Shown piece by piece: positions 43,821 through 48,320 of a stretch of 64,000 nt of DNA; positions within the stretch are counted from its first letter, which is position 1, and every line of letters starts with the position of its first letter. The stretch is from Hyphomonas sp. TMED17. GTDB taxonomy: Bacteria; Pseudomonadota; Alphaproteobacteria; Caulobacterales; Hyphomonadaceae. The notes beneath the pieces were generated by a model. That model was not told the DNA's origin, made no database searches, and saw only the letters and a list, made by a program, of their open reading frames with translations. The stretch is taken from NCBI GenBank assembly GCA_002172915.1, contig NHBW01000005.1, positions 2,722 to 66,721 on the forward strand, in the 5' to 3' direction. Position numbers and translations under genes: made by a program.

Positions 43821-45521
43821 TCAGACAATGGCAGCATCAATCAAGAGAAAGGTTGCCAGTCGCGCGCTGGCGCTTTTCTTTGAGCTGGCTGTCTTCTCGA
43901 GTGCCTCAAGCGCGTCGGCTTGCTCATAACTTATGAAATCACTTGCGAGCTGCATAAGAGACGCATCTGACCGCAACCGCTTGCGGATCCGGTCGACGGA
44001 CCGGTTTGCGTCTTCGGAGACAATCCGCCGCCGCTCGATGTCTCCTTTAAGGGATGCAGCGGCCGCGCGTTTTTTCTGCTTGGTCCGGAATGCGTCGACC
44101 AGCTCTATGCCTGATTCTTCGAGACGAAGTATGATTTCGCTGGCCGTTTCCTCTCGCGATAAAGGCACATGATCGCTCTTTTCCATATCGGCGATAATTT
44201 CGCTCAGTGACTGCTTGGAATGGGCGTCTTCGATCGCTCCCTCAAGATTATCATCGATCTCGATATCGACGAAGTCTTCCGGCTCGAAATCTAGCCAGCC
44301 TTGATCGCGTTCAAGGTTTTGTGCGGCCCGGCTCTCGTCGACAGTGGCAGCGATCTGGTCGGCAGCCGCTTCGAACAGGCCAGGACCATCCGCAGGTGCC
44401 TCCTCACTGTCAGAATCGTGCGAGGCAATGGGCGGATTTGCCGGCTTGCCGGCGGCTGTCGGGGTATTTGAGCGGCCGCGCCGCCGCGCTTGTCGGCGGG
44501 GTGGCGCCGCTGCCGGACCGAGATCCTCGTCATCATCGAGAATTTCATCATCACGCGTCGCTGATGCGACCGGGATCTTGATATCGGGTTCAGAACCGAT
44601 GTCATCGGCTGAGTTGCCAGTCGCAATTACCGCAGCGGCCAGACGCTGGCTCGCATTTTCGAGCGCATCAATTATCTGCTCGGATGAACGACACGCCGCT
44701 TCCACCGAATCCTGAGAGGCAATCAAATTATCATCCATGCGCTGTAGGGTTTCGATCAAACCGCCACCATTTTCAGTTGCTGCGCCAGCCAGAGCATCAA
44801 TTTCACTGATTTTTTCGCCAAGCGAAACGCCGGTTGCTTCGAGACGGTCAAGGCGTGCCTCGAGTGCTTTTTCGGCCTTCTCAATATCTGCGGCGAAGGA
44901 TTCGGCTGATTTGGTCAGGAGGCGTGTCTGTTTTGGCAGCGCGTCAGGAAGGCTCTCTGACAATGCATGTAGCGATTTGGCGAGCGTTTCGAGCGACTGG
45001 CGTTCCTGCGAGAGTTGGCTAACCAATTCTTTCGTATTGTCGGCATTCGCGTACGTTACCGATTCGATCCGGCGTCTTTCATCGTCCAATGTTTCGAATA
45101 CGTCCTTGATGCTGGTCACGGCCTCCGTCATTGCCTGACTCATTGCGGACGTAGCCTGGTTTAGCTGGTCAACAACCCGGTTTGGGCGGGTCTCTGAGTC
45201 GTCTGCCGGCGCCAATAATCGGGCCGCTGCCTGCAAGATTTGTTCATTCGCTTCGGCAGTGCGCTGGCGTTCTGAGATTAGCGCGCCGGCAAGGGCGATT
45301 AGCGCCCCGGGCAATAATAATGATGCCGCACCGAGAATGATTATAAACGGATTAAATACTGACAGGGCATTGAGGCCGATCACCTGGACTGTCGCTATAA
45401 GGATTGTAAGCGTCCAAAGCCCGGCGGCACCAAGACATAATTTAAAACCCCAATCGCTAAAGCGGCCGGCTGGTGGGTGAATGTCCGGGGCGATATCGAT
45501 GTGGTTTGTATCGTCGGTCAT
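43821..45521 (-). CDS. Membrane-anchored coiled-coil protein, TipN-like
   Basis: Two hydrophobic segments near residues 25-47 and 57-78 are followed by a long alpha-helical, Glu/Ala/Gln-rich coiled-coil (about 130-310), an acidic and Pro/Arg-rich linker (about 320-420), and a well-ordered C-terminal helical region (about 440-566). This two-helix anchor plus coiled-coil layout resembles the polarity protein TipN of Caulobacter. The similarity is in organisation, not a sequence match I can prove. ATG at 45521 was chosen over one at 45590 because the longer form has no convincing ribosome site and ends in the normal-looking MTDDTNH start. The role is unknown. Confidence 0.65.
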   Translation of the reverse strand: MTDDTNHIDIAPDIHPPAGRFSDWGFKLCLGAAGLWTLTILIATVQVIGLNALSVFNPFIIILGAASLLLPGALIALAGALISERQRTAEANEQILQAAARLLAPADDSETRPNRVVDQLNQATSAMSQAMTEAVTSIKDVFETLDDERRRIESVTYANADNTKELVSQLSQERQSLETLAKSLHALSESLPDALPKQTRLLTKSAESFAADIEKAEKALEARLDRLEATGVSLGEKISEIDALAGAATENGGGLIETLQRMDDNLIASQDSVEAACRSSEQIIDALENASQRLAAAVIATGNSADDIGSEPDIKIPVASATRDDEILDDDEDLGPAAAPPRRQARRRGRSNTPTAAGKPANPPIASHDSDSEEAPADGPGLFEAAADQIAATVDESRAAQNLERDQGWLDFEPEDFVDIEIDDNLEGAIEDAHSKQSLSEIIADMEKSDHVPLSREETASEIILRLEESGIELVDAFRTKQKKRAAAASLKGDIERRRIVSEDANRSVDRIRKRLRSDASLMQLASDFISYEQADALEALEKTASSKKSASARLATFLLIDAAIV

Positions 45522-45817
45522 GTGTGGTCCGTTCCGAATCTCTGCGACTTGTTTCGTTGCAACTATAAACCCTGCTGAAATCGGCGCCAACCTTGTCCCG
45601 CGCGCGACGCAGTCCGGGCTGATCTGTTGCTCCAGACAATGCTTTACTTCGTTCTAAATAGACTAGATTTTTTCAATATGCGCAAATCAGTGTTAAATCC
45701 GCATTTCAGTTATTAGCAGTTTCGCGATGATAAGAATCGATAGATGTCTAAAACGTTTGGCCGCATTAGTAGAGGTGCCGGTCTAACATATAAATATATG
45801 AAGCAAGGACATCCTAA

Positions 45818-47266
45818 ATGGCGATAGCAGAATTACACTCAAAGATCGATCTAATCGGCTTTAACCTTAAAATGCTGTCAAAAGGGAAGAAACGATCCCT
45901 TCTGATCAGCGCCGGGTCTTCGGATGACAAAGCGTTTCTTTTGGATGTCTGCCGCAAAATGTCCGAAATCGGTGTGCGATTGTTTTCAACACCCGGCACC
46001 CAGCGCTTTTTGTCCGAAAATGGCGTTGCTTCAACACTGGCGGAAAAAATATCGAGCCAGAGCGAGCCGAATATCCGCTCGCTCATTGAAAATGGCAAAG
46101 TTGATTTTGTTATCAATATTATGACGGGTGATACGGGTTATGATGAAGCATCCGATGCCTCGCATATCCGATCCTTGTCCATCCGCCACGGTATTCCATT
46201 GATTACCGACCGGCTAGTTGCGCGTGAGACAATCGAAGTAGTTATCGATGATCTGAAGTCTGGTACTTTTGACTATCATATCCGTTCGGATGACCGGCCA
46301 TGGGATCTGAAAGCGCGGTTTCTGGAGCTGGTCCGGCAGCGCGGTGGTTTCGCGAACCACCACGGTCATTTTGATAAGGCATATCTGATTTCGCCGGAAA
46401 ACCTCGCGCTTGGCTTTGCCGATATGGAGAAAAAGTGGACTTTATACCGGCATTTAAAAGAAAATTATACTCACGAAGACTTGGTCGAACGTATTTCGAG
46501 AGCGGTTGAAACGGTTTACCAGCAAGGATCGAAATATTGCCGGACAATGGTTGATGCCGACCGGGTGATCGGGCTCAAGGCCATTCATGCGGCGGTCGAG
46601 GTCAAGGACCGCTATAAAGATAAAATCAGGTTTGAAATTGGAGTGCAGCCGCTCGAGGGCGTAATCGATGAAACCTCACGGGCGCAATATATTGATGCTT
46701 GTCAGATGGCTGATTTTTGCGGCGGGCTGCCGTCCCGGGACCGCCCGCAAGAGGAGCGTCACCTCGATATTGTGATGCAGACTGCCAAGGAATTTAATAA
46801 ATTTGTTGAAGTGCATGTCGATCAGGAGAACAATCCATTCCAGAATGAGACTGAATTATTGTGCCTGAAGACGATTGAGCACGGAATGCAAGGGCGGGTT
46901 TATGGCATTCATTCCATTTCTGTTTCGGCCAAGGATAATAGCGAGCAGGATCGCATTGTCGCGTTGTGCAAACAGGCTGATATCGGCATTGTCATTTGTC
47001 CTTCGGCGGCATTGTCGATGAAGCAATTGCCGATGAGCGGCCCGTTGCATAATTCAATCGGACCATTTGTGAAATTACGTGAGGCTGGCGTTCGGGCCTA
47101 TCTTGGGATCGACAATATAAACGATCTGTTTATGCCGATTGTCGATGGTGACATGTGGACCGAAGCCAGAGTGTTAATGGAAGCTTGCAGATTTTATGAT
47201 CTCGAGCAGGTTGCCGACTGGGCGTCTCTGGCCCCATTGCACCTAGCCGATGAGCTGGCTTCCTAG
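45818..47266 (+). CDS. MGS-like domain fused to cytosine-deaminase-like amidohydrolase
   Basis: Two folds in one 482-residue protein. Residues about 25-145 match the methylglyoxal-synthase-like domain found at the C-terminus of carbamoyl phosphate synthase (LFSTPGTQRFLSENG, PNIRSLIENGKVDFVINIM, HGIPLITDRLVARETIE). Residues about 170-482 are an amidohydrolase of the cytosine-deaminase clan, with metal ligands in HHGHFDK (H182, H184), H333 in VEVHVDQE, H365 in GIHSISVSA and D432 in LGIDNINDLF. The MGS part would be a regulatory ligand-binding domain and the rest a deaminase or cyclic amidohydrolase. No such pairing is known to me. It stands alone with infA 135 bases downstream. Confidence 0.82.
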   Translation: MAIAELHSKIDLIGFNLKMLSKGKKRSLLISAGSSDDKAFLLDVCRKMSEIGVRLFSTPGTQRFLSENGVASTLAEKISSQSEPNIRSLIENGKVDFVINIMTGDTGYDEASDASHIRSLSIRHGIPLITDRLVARETIEVVIDDLKSGTFDYHIRSDDRPWDLKARFLELVRQRGGFANHHGHFDKAYLISPENLALGFADMEKKWTLYRHLKENYTHEDLVERISRAVETVYQQGSKYCRTMVDADRVIGLKAIHAAVEVKDRYKDKIRFEIGVQPLEGVIDETSRAQYIDACQMADFCGGLPSRDRPQEERHLDIVMQTAKEFNKFVEVHVDQENNPFQNETELLCLKTIEHGMQGRVYGIHSISVSAKDNSEQDRIVALCKQADIGIVICPSAALSMKQLPMSGPLHNSIGPFVKLREAGVRAYLGIDNINDLFMPIVDGDMWTEARVLMEACRFYDLEQVADWASLAPLHLADELAS

Positions 47267-47401: not shown

Positions 47402-47620
47402 ATGTCAAAAGAAGAGATCATTGAGTTTAACGGTACAATCGTCGAGCTTCTGCCGAACGCGACATTTAGAGTTAAGCTGGAAAACGATCACGAGATTATC
47501 GGATATACGGCCGGGAAAATGCGGAAAAACAGAATTCGTATTCTGACTGGCGATAAAGTGCTTGTCGAAATGACGCCGTATGATTTGACCAAAGGCCGGA
47601 TTACATATCGCTTTAAATAG
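47402..47620 (+). CDS. infA: Translation initiation factor IF-1
   Basis: Essential S1/OB-fold initiation factor. The 72-residue protein has the standard sequence: [65 protein letters not shown]. Followed after 124 bases by maf, a usual alphaproteobacterial order (infA-maf). Confidence 0.98.
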
Positions 47621-47744
47621 TCCGCCCACAATTATTGTCCGGTAAAATTGATCGAGCCAAACAGGCAAAAGCCCTTAATAGTGGGAAGGCCTCGTAATCG
47701 TTGCGATGGTGCCTGTGGATCAGAAGTGTTGGTGAGGATTGCCA

Positions 47745-48320
47745 ATGTCACGAGCAAATTTGGTGTTGGCGAGTGCATCGCTCAGACGGTTACAATTGCT
47801 CGCACAGATTGGTATCGCGCCGGATCATGTCGCGCCAACGGAGATTGATGAAACACCCAGCGCGAAAGAGCTGCCCCGGCCCTATGTTGTCAGGATGGCC
47901 TCGGAAAAAGCTGCCGCTGGCCATGCCCCGGGCCAATATACTCTGGCTGGCGATACAGTTGTCGCACTGGGGCGACGTATTTTGCCAAAGGCCGAAACGC
48001 CGGCCGAAGTTGAGAACTGTTTAAAAAGTCTGAGTGGACGCGCCCATGCGGTGATGACTGCCATTTGTGTCATAGACCCGAGCGGTATCACGGGACATCG
48101 CTTAAGCGTCAGCCGCGTGCTCGTAAAGCGTTTGGACGATTGTGATATCTCCGGCTATGTGCAGTCGGATGAAGGACTGGGGAAAGCTGGCGGGTACGGC
48201 ATTCAAGGACGTGCCGGAGCATTTATTAAACGAATTAATGGAAGCTATACCGGAATTGTCGGCCTGCCGCTTTGGGAGACTGAAAGCTTGCTGACCGGAA
48301 TGGGCTATCAAGGTAAATGA
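47745..48320 (+). CDS. Maf-family nucleotide pyrophosphatase
   Basis: Maf/Ham1-like pyrophosphatase acting on non-canonical or dTTP/UTP-type nucleotides. N-terminal LVLASASLRRLQLLAQIGI, LAGDTVVALGRRILPK, and QSDEGLGKAGGYGIQGRAGAF with GSYTGIVGLPLWET are the family motifs. ATG at 47745 follows GAGGA closely; a TTG at 47739 would add two residues. It is followed after about 55 bases by a phosphatase gene, likely co-transcribed. Confidence 0.92.
   Translation: MSRANLVLASASLRRLQLLAQIGIAPDHVAPTEIDETPSAKELPRPYVVRMASEKAAAGHAPGQYTLAGDTVVALGRRILPKAETPAEVENCLKSLSGRAHAVMTAICVIDPSGITGHRLSVSRVLVKRLDDCDISGYVQSDEGLGKAGGYGIQGRAGAFIKRINGSYTGIVGLPLWETESLLTGMGYQGK

Follow-up and report, generated by a model that had tools for sequence, protein, structure and literature searches.

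The de novo synthesis of UMP is textbook biochemistry, and a genome with a hole at PyrB and PyrC (aspartate carbamoyltransferase and dihydroorotase) is usually read as that of an auxotroph. In eukaryotic CAD, a carbamoyl phosphate synthase (CPSase) with its methylglyoxal synthase-like (MGS) domain is followed by dihydroorotase and then by ATCase. In a yeast protein, a dihydroorotase-like domain lies between CPSase and ATCase. For the MGS domain of CarB, an excerpted account relates T977 and K993 to UMP inhibition and binding and T1042 to ornithine activation, of which it is part, and reports that the S948F substitution renders CPSase insensitive to UMP and IMP (PMC6245113). Among amidohydrolases, PMC12828455 counts the proton-shuttling Glu and the substrate Gln of the cytosine deaminase CodA among the core elements of its mechanism, and in AtzC (N-isopropylammelide isopropylaminohydrolase; 2qt3, 4cqb) K65 and N304 contact bound malonate, according to an extract of PMC4577212. 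A mononuclear dihydroorotase is known as well, from excerpted text of PMC3880350. The family NCBIfam NF005365 (PRK06886), annotated as "hypothetical protein" and defined by a profile of 327 positions, otherwise consists of stand-alone proteins of ~327 aa.

The window analysed here, a 64,000-nt stretch of a Hyphomonas sp. TMED17 contig, encodes a longer, 482-aa protein in which an MGS domain precedes an NF005365 barrel in a single chain, and its open reading frame was confirmed at exactly the coordinates given in Table 1. The Pfam MGS profile (PF02142) matches residues 41-130 of the fusion with E 2.9e-18 (66.2 bits against a cut-off of 24.1); up to E 1 no other Pfam family matches, and the ATP-grasp halves of carbamoyl phosphate synthase are not matched. 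The NF005365 profile scores 508.4 bits on this protein and 431.2 bits on a verrucomicrobial fusion (L051), with a cut-off of 340. Sequence search of solved structures placed carbamoyl phosphate synthase chains within residues 14-143 and AtzC/CodA (cytosine deaminase) chains within residues 176-477. An AlphaFold model of the fusion, built from an alignment of 25 rows, reached a mean pLDDT of 77.7 and a pTM of 0.68, with pLDDT below 50 at residues 1-24, 104-108, 152-162 and 402-410, and Foldseek matched this model to 5-methylcytosine deaminase, AtzC and CodA and, separately, to the human CPS MGS domain (2yvq). These searches bear out a sequence-only reading of the locus, which had recognised an amidohydrolase preceded by a CarB-type MGS domain and had proposed a domain search and a structure prediction as checks: the MGS profile and both folds were found. 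The PF02142 and 2yvq matches rule out that the N-terminus is an ordinary part of the amidohydrolase fold. On the minus strand before the fusion gene lies a gene for a 589-aa protein (window 43821-45590) with long coiled-coil-like stretches and a weak CorA-like match below the cut-off (E 1.9e-4); a counterpart with just 34-35% identity adjoins the fusion in the Henriciella-type loci L048 and L040.

Table 1. Features of the fusion gene in window coordinates.
Feature	Position	Strand	Basis
AAGGA, likely ribosome-binding site, 8 bases before ATG	45805..45809	+	sequence, by eye
MGS-amidohydrolase fusion CDS, 482 aa plus stop	45818..47266	+	full-length homologues in 16/105 family genomes, own genome included
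MGS-like domain, residues 25-147	45890..46258	+	PF02142 at 41-130; model elements E27-31 to H132-147; 2yvq match
K38, aligned with CarB K954; invariant in 20 fused rows	45929..45931	+	alignment
T58-P-G-T61, aligned with CarB T974-H-G-T977	45989..46000	+	alignment
K77, aligned with CarB K993 (UMP binding)	46046..46048	+	alignment
N100, aligned with CarB N1015	46115..46117	+	alignment
Loop Y108-D113	46139..46156	+	alignment; model confidence low at 104-108
Amidohydrolase barrel, residues 157-477 (NF005365)	46286..47248	+	E 7.6e-153, 508 bits vs cut-off 340
H182-G-H184, metal ligands (CodA H61, H63)	46361..46369	+	alignment
K187, at AtzC K65 place; Arg in 2 stand-alone members compared	46376..46378	+	alignment
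R307-D308, invariant in 25 rows, absent from CodA	46736..46741	+	alignment
H333, metal ligand; Q336 at CodA E217 place	46814..46825	+	alignment
H365 (CodA H246, AtzC H249)	46910..46912	+	alignment
D432, metal/catalytic Asp (CodA D313); N433 (AtzC N304)	47111..47116	+	alignment

Among 105 genomes of the host's own family, the Hyphomonadaceae, the full-length fusion is present in 16, of which 14 belong to the window's genus and two to another. Of 385 genomes sampled across the class, two scored over the cut-off, namely the window's genome and G195, and both carry the fusion. Named genome contigs, scanned with two short conserved patterns that may miss more distant members, returned 18 loci, every one of them fused, from Henriciella, Hyphomonas, Hirschia and Euryhalocaulis relatives, one other alphaproteobacterium and three Verrucomicrobia whose proteins are 51-52% identical to the query. 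Since 14 of these 18 loci encode proteins identical to those of genome-sample loci, the two sets together comprise 21 distinct proteins from the Verrucomicrobia, a further alphaproteobacterial family and the Hyphomonadaceae with their relatives, the fused homologues that the sequence-only reading had recommended looking for; with the same architecture in 21 distinct proteins, the fusion is not a chance join. Both of its halves look to be under purifying selection, with dN/dS values of 0.03-0.23 for the MGS half and 0.008-0.041 for the barrel in the five of seven pairs for each half that were not saturated. In one of the 21, from a Euryhalocaulis MAG (L055), the fused ORF runs out of frame in the barrel and the tblastn match goes on, indicating a frameshift or an assembly error.

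A Verrucomicrobia sample of 288 genomes yielded the seed genome alone, and a phylum-wide sample of 398 genomes yielded the window's genome together with five genomes of one family that carry the stand-alone form. The DNA of these five carries uptake-signal words that we take as a marker of the Pasteurellaceae. Three of the five have no CarB-size MGS match, so that the gene is kept there without the usual source of carbamoyl phosphate. A Rosetta-stone relationship was also considered and rejected, as no MGS gene of its own accompanies the stand-alone form within ~9 kb. No relatives were found on viral contigs, and among 572 matching plasmid records not one covered 80% of the query. In a barrel tree, 11 fused rows form one side of a branch (95/92), and a 100/100 split sets the fused and stand-alone forms, together with a short Gemmobacter plasmid protein, against CodA and the full-length relatives. 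Distant plasmid relatives encoded near purine or allantoin genes are full-length proteins outside the family and were not used to infer function. The Gemmobacter aquarius plasmid protein (L117, 4953-6095) is a short, 380-aa barrel member with Gln and Arg-Asp like the fusion; its gene lies after a sulfotransferase-looking gene and three bases before a large AMP-binding gene, perhaps reflecting a different use of the barrel. The contig of L051 (G844) is titled Akkermansia muciniphila; its genome measures 6.5 Mb, far too large for that species, and is probably a mislabelled MAG.

In its MGS half, the query and seven other fused rows keep the equivalents of CarB S948, K954, T974, G976, T977, K993, N1015, G1019 and T1042, whereas CarB H975, H995, T1016 and T1017 are replaced. 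K954, T974, G976, N1015 and G1019 also belong to the UMP/IMP site. Besides lacking the ATP-grasp domains, the fusion differs from CarB in its longer acidic loop Y108-D113, where Y108, D109, E110 and S112 are invariant in 20 fused rows and have no counterpart in the shorter CarB loop; D113 corresponds to CarB D1025 and is common to both. It had been suggested from the sequence that a nucleotide or phosphate ligand controls the amidohydrolase: the retained UMP/IMP-site residues support such control without proving it.

The barrel shares with E. coli CodA the fold, the metal set and the base His, and the metal-site residues picked out in the sequence-only reading align with those of CodA as H182, H184, H333, H365 and D432. 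CodA's N- and C-terminal beta-sandwich strands, by contrast, are absent from the fusion, the match stopping at residue 358 of CodA's 426, and in all 25 aligned members CodA Glu217, Gln156 and Phe154 are replaced by Gln336, Leu279 and Gln277, respectively. Among eight full-length relatives outside the family, six keep CodA's proton-shuttling Glu (L034-L037, L119 and L120) and seven, L120 being the exception, its substrate Gln; in L118 and L018 the Glu is replaced by Phe. AtzC has the same metal set, with its H249, N304 and K65 corresponding to H365, N433 and K187, but uses H219 where the fusion has D335/Q336, and its ~400-aa chain includes N- and C-terminal parts outside the barrel, in place of which the fusion has the MGS domain. 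The stand-alone NF005365 proteins belong to the same barrel family and carry the equivalents of Q336, Q277, L279, R307 and D308 but are of barrel-only length, without an MGS domain, are 34-37% identical to the fusion in the Pasteurellaceae homologues, and have Arg for K187. Judged from these residues, the barrel looks like an active mononuclear amidohydrolase but is not expected to deaminate cytosine, and the R307-D308 pair is a possible carboxylate binder. An ordinary cytosine deaminase is ruled out by Q336 and L279 in 25/25 rows, and "cytosine-deaminase-type", as the barrel had been called, is not supported as a description of activity. The dihydroorotase profiles TIGR00857 and TIGR00856 were not among the 13 families matching the barrel up to E 1, and in this the fusion differs from CAD, with which it shares the order of an MGS domain followed by a candidate pyrimidine-pathway amidohydrolase. 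The sequence-only reading had missed both that the amidohydrolase half belongs to a named family of stand-alone proteins and that the gene occurs where dihydroorotase is absent.

That second feature emerged from a comparison of genomes with and without the fusion, in which class I PyrC was defined by TIGR00857 at E<=1e-30 and class II by TIGR00856 at 1e-10, "absent" meaning no match at those thresholds. Within the Hyphomonadaceae, class I PyrC was found in 0/16 genomes with the fusion and in 46/47 without it (47 searched for PyrC among the 89 genomes lacking a full-length fusion; Fisher p 4.6e-14). The pattern recurs in the window's genus alone (0/14 vs 14/15; p 2e-7) and in a second genus (0/2 vs 1/1), although the genomes are related and the p-values overstate their independence; states with and without the gene both occur in two genera (g1 and g3). 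Class I PyrC is likewise missing from G195 and the three fused Verrucomicrobia (0/4). Altogether, neither TIGR00857 nor TIGR00856 matched in any of 25 gene-bearing genomes (0/25 each), and in 14 well-known genomes used as controls TIGR00857 matched in all 14 (11 over the cut-off) and TIGR00856 in three, E. coli included. The 25 include the five Pasteurellaceae with the stand-alone form, which also lack PyrC and add little to the exclusion because pyrimidine auxotrophs occur in that family, Haemophilus influenzae being one according to an extract of PMC13328217. Twenty relatives of the gene-bearing Verrucomicrobia all match TIGR00857 and were left out of the with/without count, which takes in genomes searched throughout for the fusion. 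In the genomes searched, the fusion and PyrC thus exclude each other, and the link to pyrimidine metabolism drawn in the sequence-only reading was right. One 2.3-Mb genome of the window's genus (G031) has neither PyrC class nor the fusion, possibly as a pyrimidine auxotroph or through another replacement, so that loss of PyrC also occurs without the fusion gene.

The window's own genome (G000) retains CarB, PyrD (NF003645), PyrE (TIGR01367) and PyrF (TIGR02127), and neither class of PyrC matches in it. No PyrB was found in 2,177,246 of its 2,450,500 bases (88.8%; assembly 90.8% complete): the sole full-length match is an ornithine carbamoyltransferase, and there is otherwise a 56-residue piece with E 0.008. 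This PyrB search covered one gene-bearing genome, the window's own. In four of four relatives without the fusion, pyrB-pyrC' lies next to plsY-dprA, in three with ruvX on the other side (ruvX, plsY, dprA, gatA/B, guaA and infA were named by the look of the sequence, not by profile). In the own genome (L189), 57 bases separate the ruvX stop from the plsY start, and the ancestral pyrB-pyrC' site is cleanly empty rather than interrupted by a gap in the assembly.

Gene order in the Verrucomicrobia gave a second view of the relationship, the gene neighbours of fused homologues being another point that the sequence-only reading had marked for checking. Each of the three Verrucomicrobia with the gene has a fusion-pyrF-guaB operon in which the fusion comes first, its stop overlapping the in-frame pyrF ATG as ATGA (by eye), and the pyrF and guaB concerned are the sole pyrF_sub2 (1e-20) and IMP dehydrogenase (1e-80) matches of each genome. 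As the three fusion proteins are 92-94% identical, these loci count as one event. Four of the 20 relatives have pyrB-pyrC-pyrF-guaB in the slot, read as pyrR-pyrB-pyrC-pyrF-guaB (L127-L130; in L128 ~850 bases lie between pyrF and guaB), and pyrR-pyrB-pyrC-pyrF is found at L132. The regions compared were picked for having pyrC and guaB on one contig (4/20; the two lie on different contigs in the other 16), with G1146 added. Because these relatives hold pyrB-pyrC before pyrF-guaB, the fusion takes the pyrB-pyrC place. Neither a homologue of the UMP-sensing pyrR at the gene-bearing loci nor a pyrB in their fetched flanks was seen. At two loci of Verrucomicrobia relatives, L099 and L101, ~700 and 850 bases of unidentified sequence lie between pyrF and guaB.

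We propose, with a probability of about 0.6, that the fusion is a non-orthologous enzyme supplying dihydroorotate, in place of PyrC and perhaps also of PyrB, and so covering an early step or steps of pyrimidine synthesis. The proposal that it makes dihydroorotate follows from its presence, in two phyla, in genomes that lack PyrC and from its operon slot in one of these phyla; in the own genome, where the hole comprises PyrB and PyrC and the steps before and after are kept, dihydroorotate production is the most economical explanation. Several observations count against it: the sequence likeness of the barrel is to deaminases rather than to dihydroorotases, the fused genomes may stem from few events altogether, G031 has lost PyrC without having the gene, stand-alone Pasteurellaceae homologues occur in genomes with no CarB-size MGS match, and a uridine kinase in the own genome leaves room for uridine salvage. 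The protein would supply dihydroorotate for UMP synthesis where the usual dihydroorotase, and probably aspartate carbamoyltransferase too, has been lost. Its barrel would hold one divalent metal through H182, H184, H333 and D432, with H365 as the base, and would form or cleave the amide bond in a substrate resembling carbamoyl-aspartate or dihydroorotate, whose carboxylates K187 and R307 could hold. The MGS domain may bind a phosphate ligand via K38, T58, T61, K77 and N100, most likely UMP or IMP, with control presumably running as feedback, like that exerted through the CPSase MGS domain.

If PyrB is truly lost, a dihydroorotase alone would be without substrate, and something must also replace PyrB. 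Should an unrecognised PyrB exist, the fusion would be a third kind of dihydroorotase with its MGS domain as feedback sensor; if none exists, both steps must sit in the fusion chain. The MGS half would then carbamoylate aspartate and the barrel would close the ring to dihydroorotate, with carbamoyl phosphate occupying the MGS phosphate site and passing its carbamoyl group to aspartate via the acidic loop Y108-D113. This two-step division of labour fits the own genome, where CarB, PyrD, PyrE and PyrF are found and exactly these two steps are not, and we regard it as tentative and rather unlikely.

About as doubtful is a role in salvage, in which de novo synthesis has been lost at PyrB/PyrC and the bacteria depend on pyrimidine import, an imported base or orotate-like compound is deaminated or opened, and the MGS domain senses UMP to stop the process once UMP is abundant. 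The barrel is indeed nearest to cytosine deaminase and AtzC, the stand-alone Pasteurellaceae forms include genomes without a CarB-size MGS match, and the own genome has a uridine kinase (NF004018, 183.2 bits vs 180; under the cut-off for TIGR00235, 174.6 vs 220.3). Set against this are the replacement of CodA's catalytic Glu and Gln throughout the aligned members, the retention of PyrD, PyrE and PyrF in the own genome, and the coupling of the verrucomicrobial gene to pyrF in the pyrB-pyrC slot. Nor did E. coli Upp, UraA, Udp, Cdd or CodB have a match at 1e-4 in 88.8% of the own genome, in a search that found the controls purM, ubiE and carB and missed one of the four, dcd; the missing Upp, UraA and CodB weigh against salvage.

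Less probable still is an allosteric amidohydrolase of some other pathway, its tie to PyrC reflecting lineage history and not function. The gene-bearing genomes are related, and the neighbourhood of the window gene is a housekeeping cluster rather than one of pyr genes: an infA-like 72-aa ORF (window 47402-47620, plus strand) and a Maf protein (47739-48320, plus strand) come after it, and queries with PyrB, PyrC, PyrF and GuaB gave no other match in the 64-kb window. Yet the exclusion holds within one genus, in a second genus and in a second phylum, and history alone would have to account also for the operon slot in the Verrucomicrobia.

That the MGS domain is a methylglyoxal synthase, making the fusion a two-activity enzyme, is very improbable and as an identity is ruled out: the fold and a Y108-D113 loop of MgsA-like length, exceeding that of CarB, fit, but the catalytic residues H19, D71 and H98 of MgsA correspond to G33, E83 (replaced by Gln in L016, L017 and L033) and E110, and MgsA rows stand apart from the fused rows with 100/100 support in an MGS tree. 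For a possible origin of the MGS half from CarB, that tree shows no more than the separation of MgsA, its root and long branches not being settled. MgsA-like frames occur in Verrucomicrobia, opposite or beside a sugar-kinase-like gene (L080, 759-1340 on the minus strand, and L079), the L080 frame being very divergent from E. coli MgsA (branch 1.46).

The sequence-only reading knew of no described enzyme of this architecture, and the protein is likewise not described among the literature matches listed for the architecture, the family and missing or alternative dihydroorotases (subscription papers being outside the scope of that search). If the fusion does supply dihydroorotate and so closes the gap in the pathway, marine relatives of Henriciella, Hyphomonas and Hirschia, along with some Verrucomicrobia, would make their pyrimidines by an unrecognised enzyme, and the "hypothetical protein" family NF005365 would gain a function. 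An MGS regulatory domain and a pyrimidine-pathway amidohydrolase would then have become joined twice in evolution, once in CAD and once here; and if the two-step division of labour proved true, the fusion would combine in one chain an aspartate carbamoyltransferase and a dihydroorotase, neither of them related to any known one.
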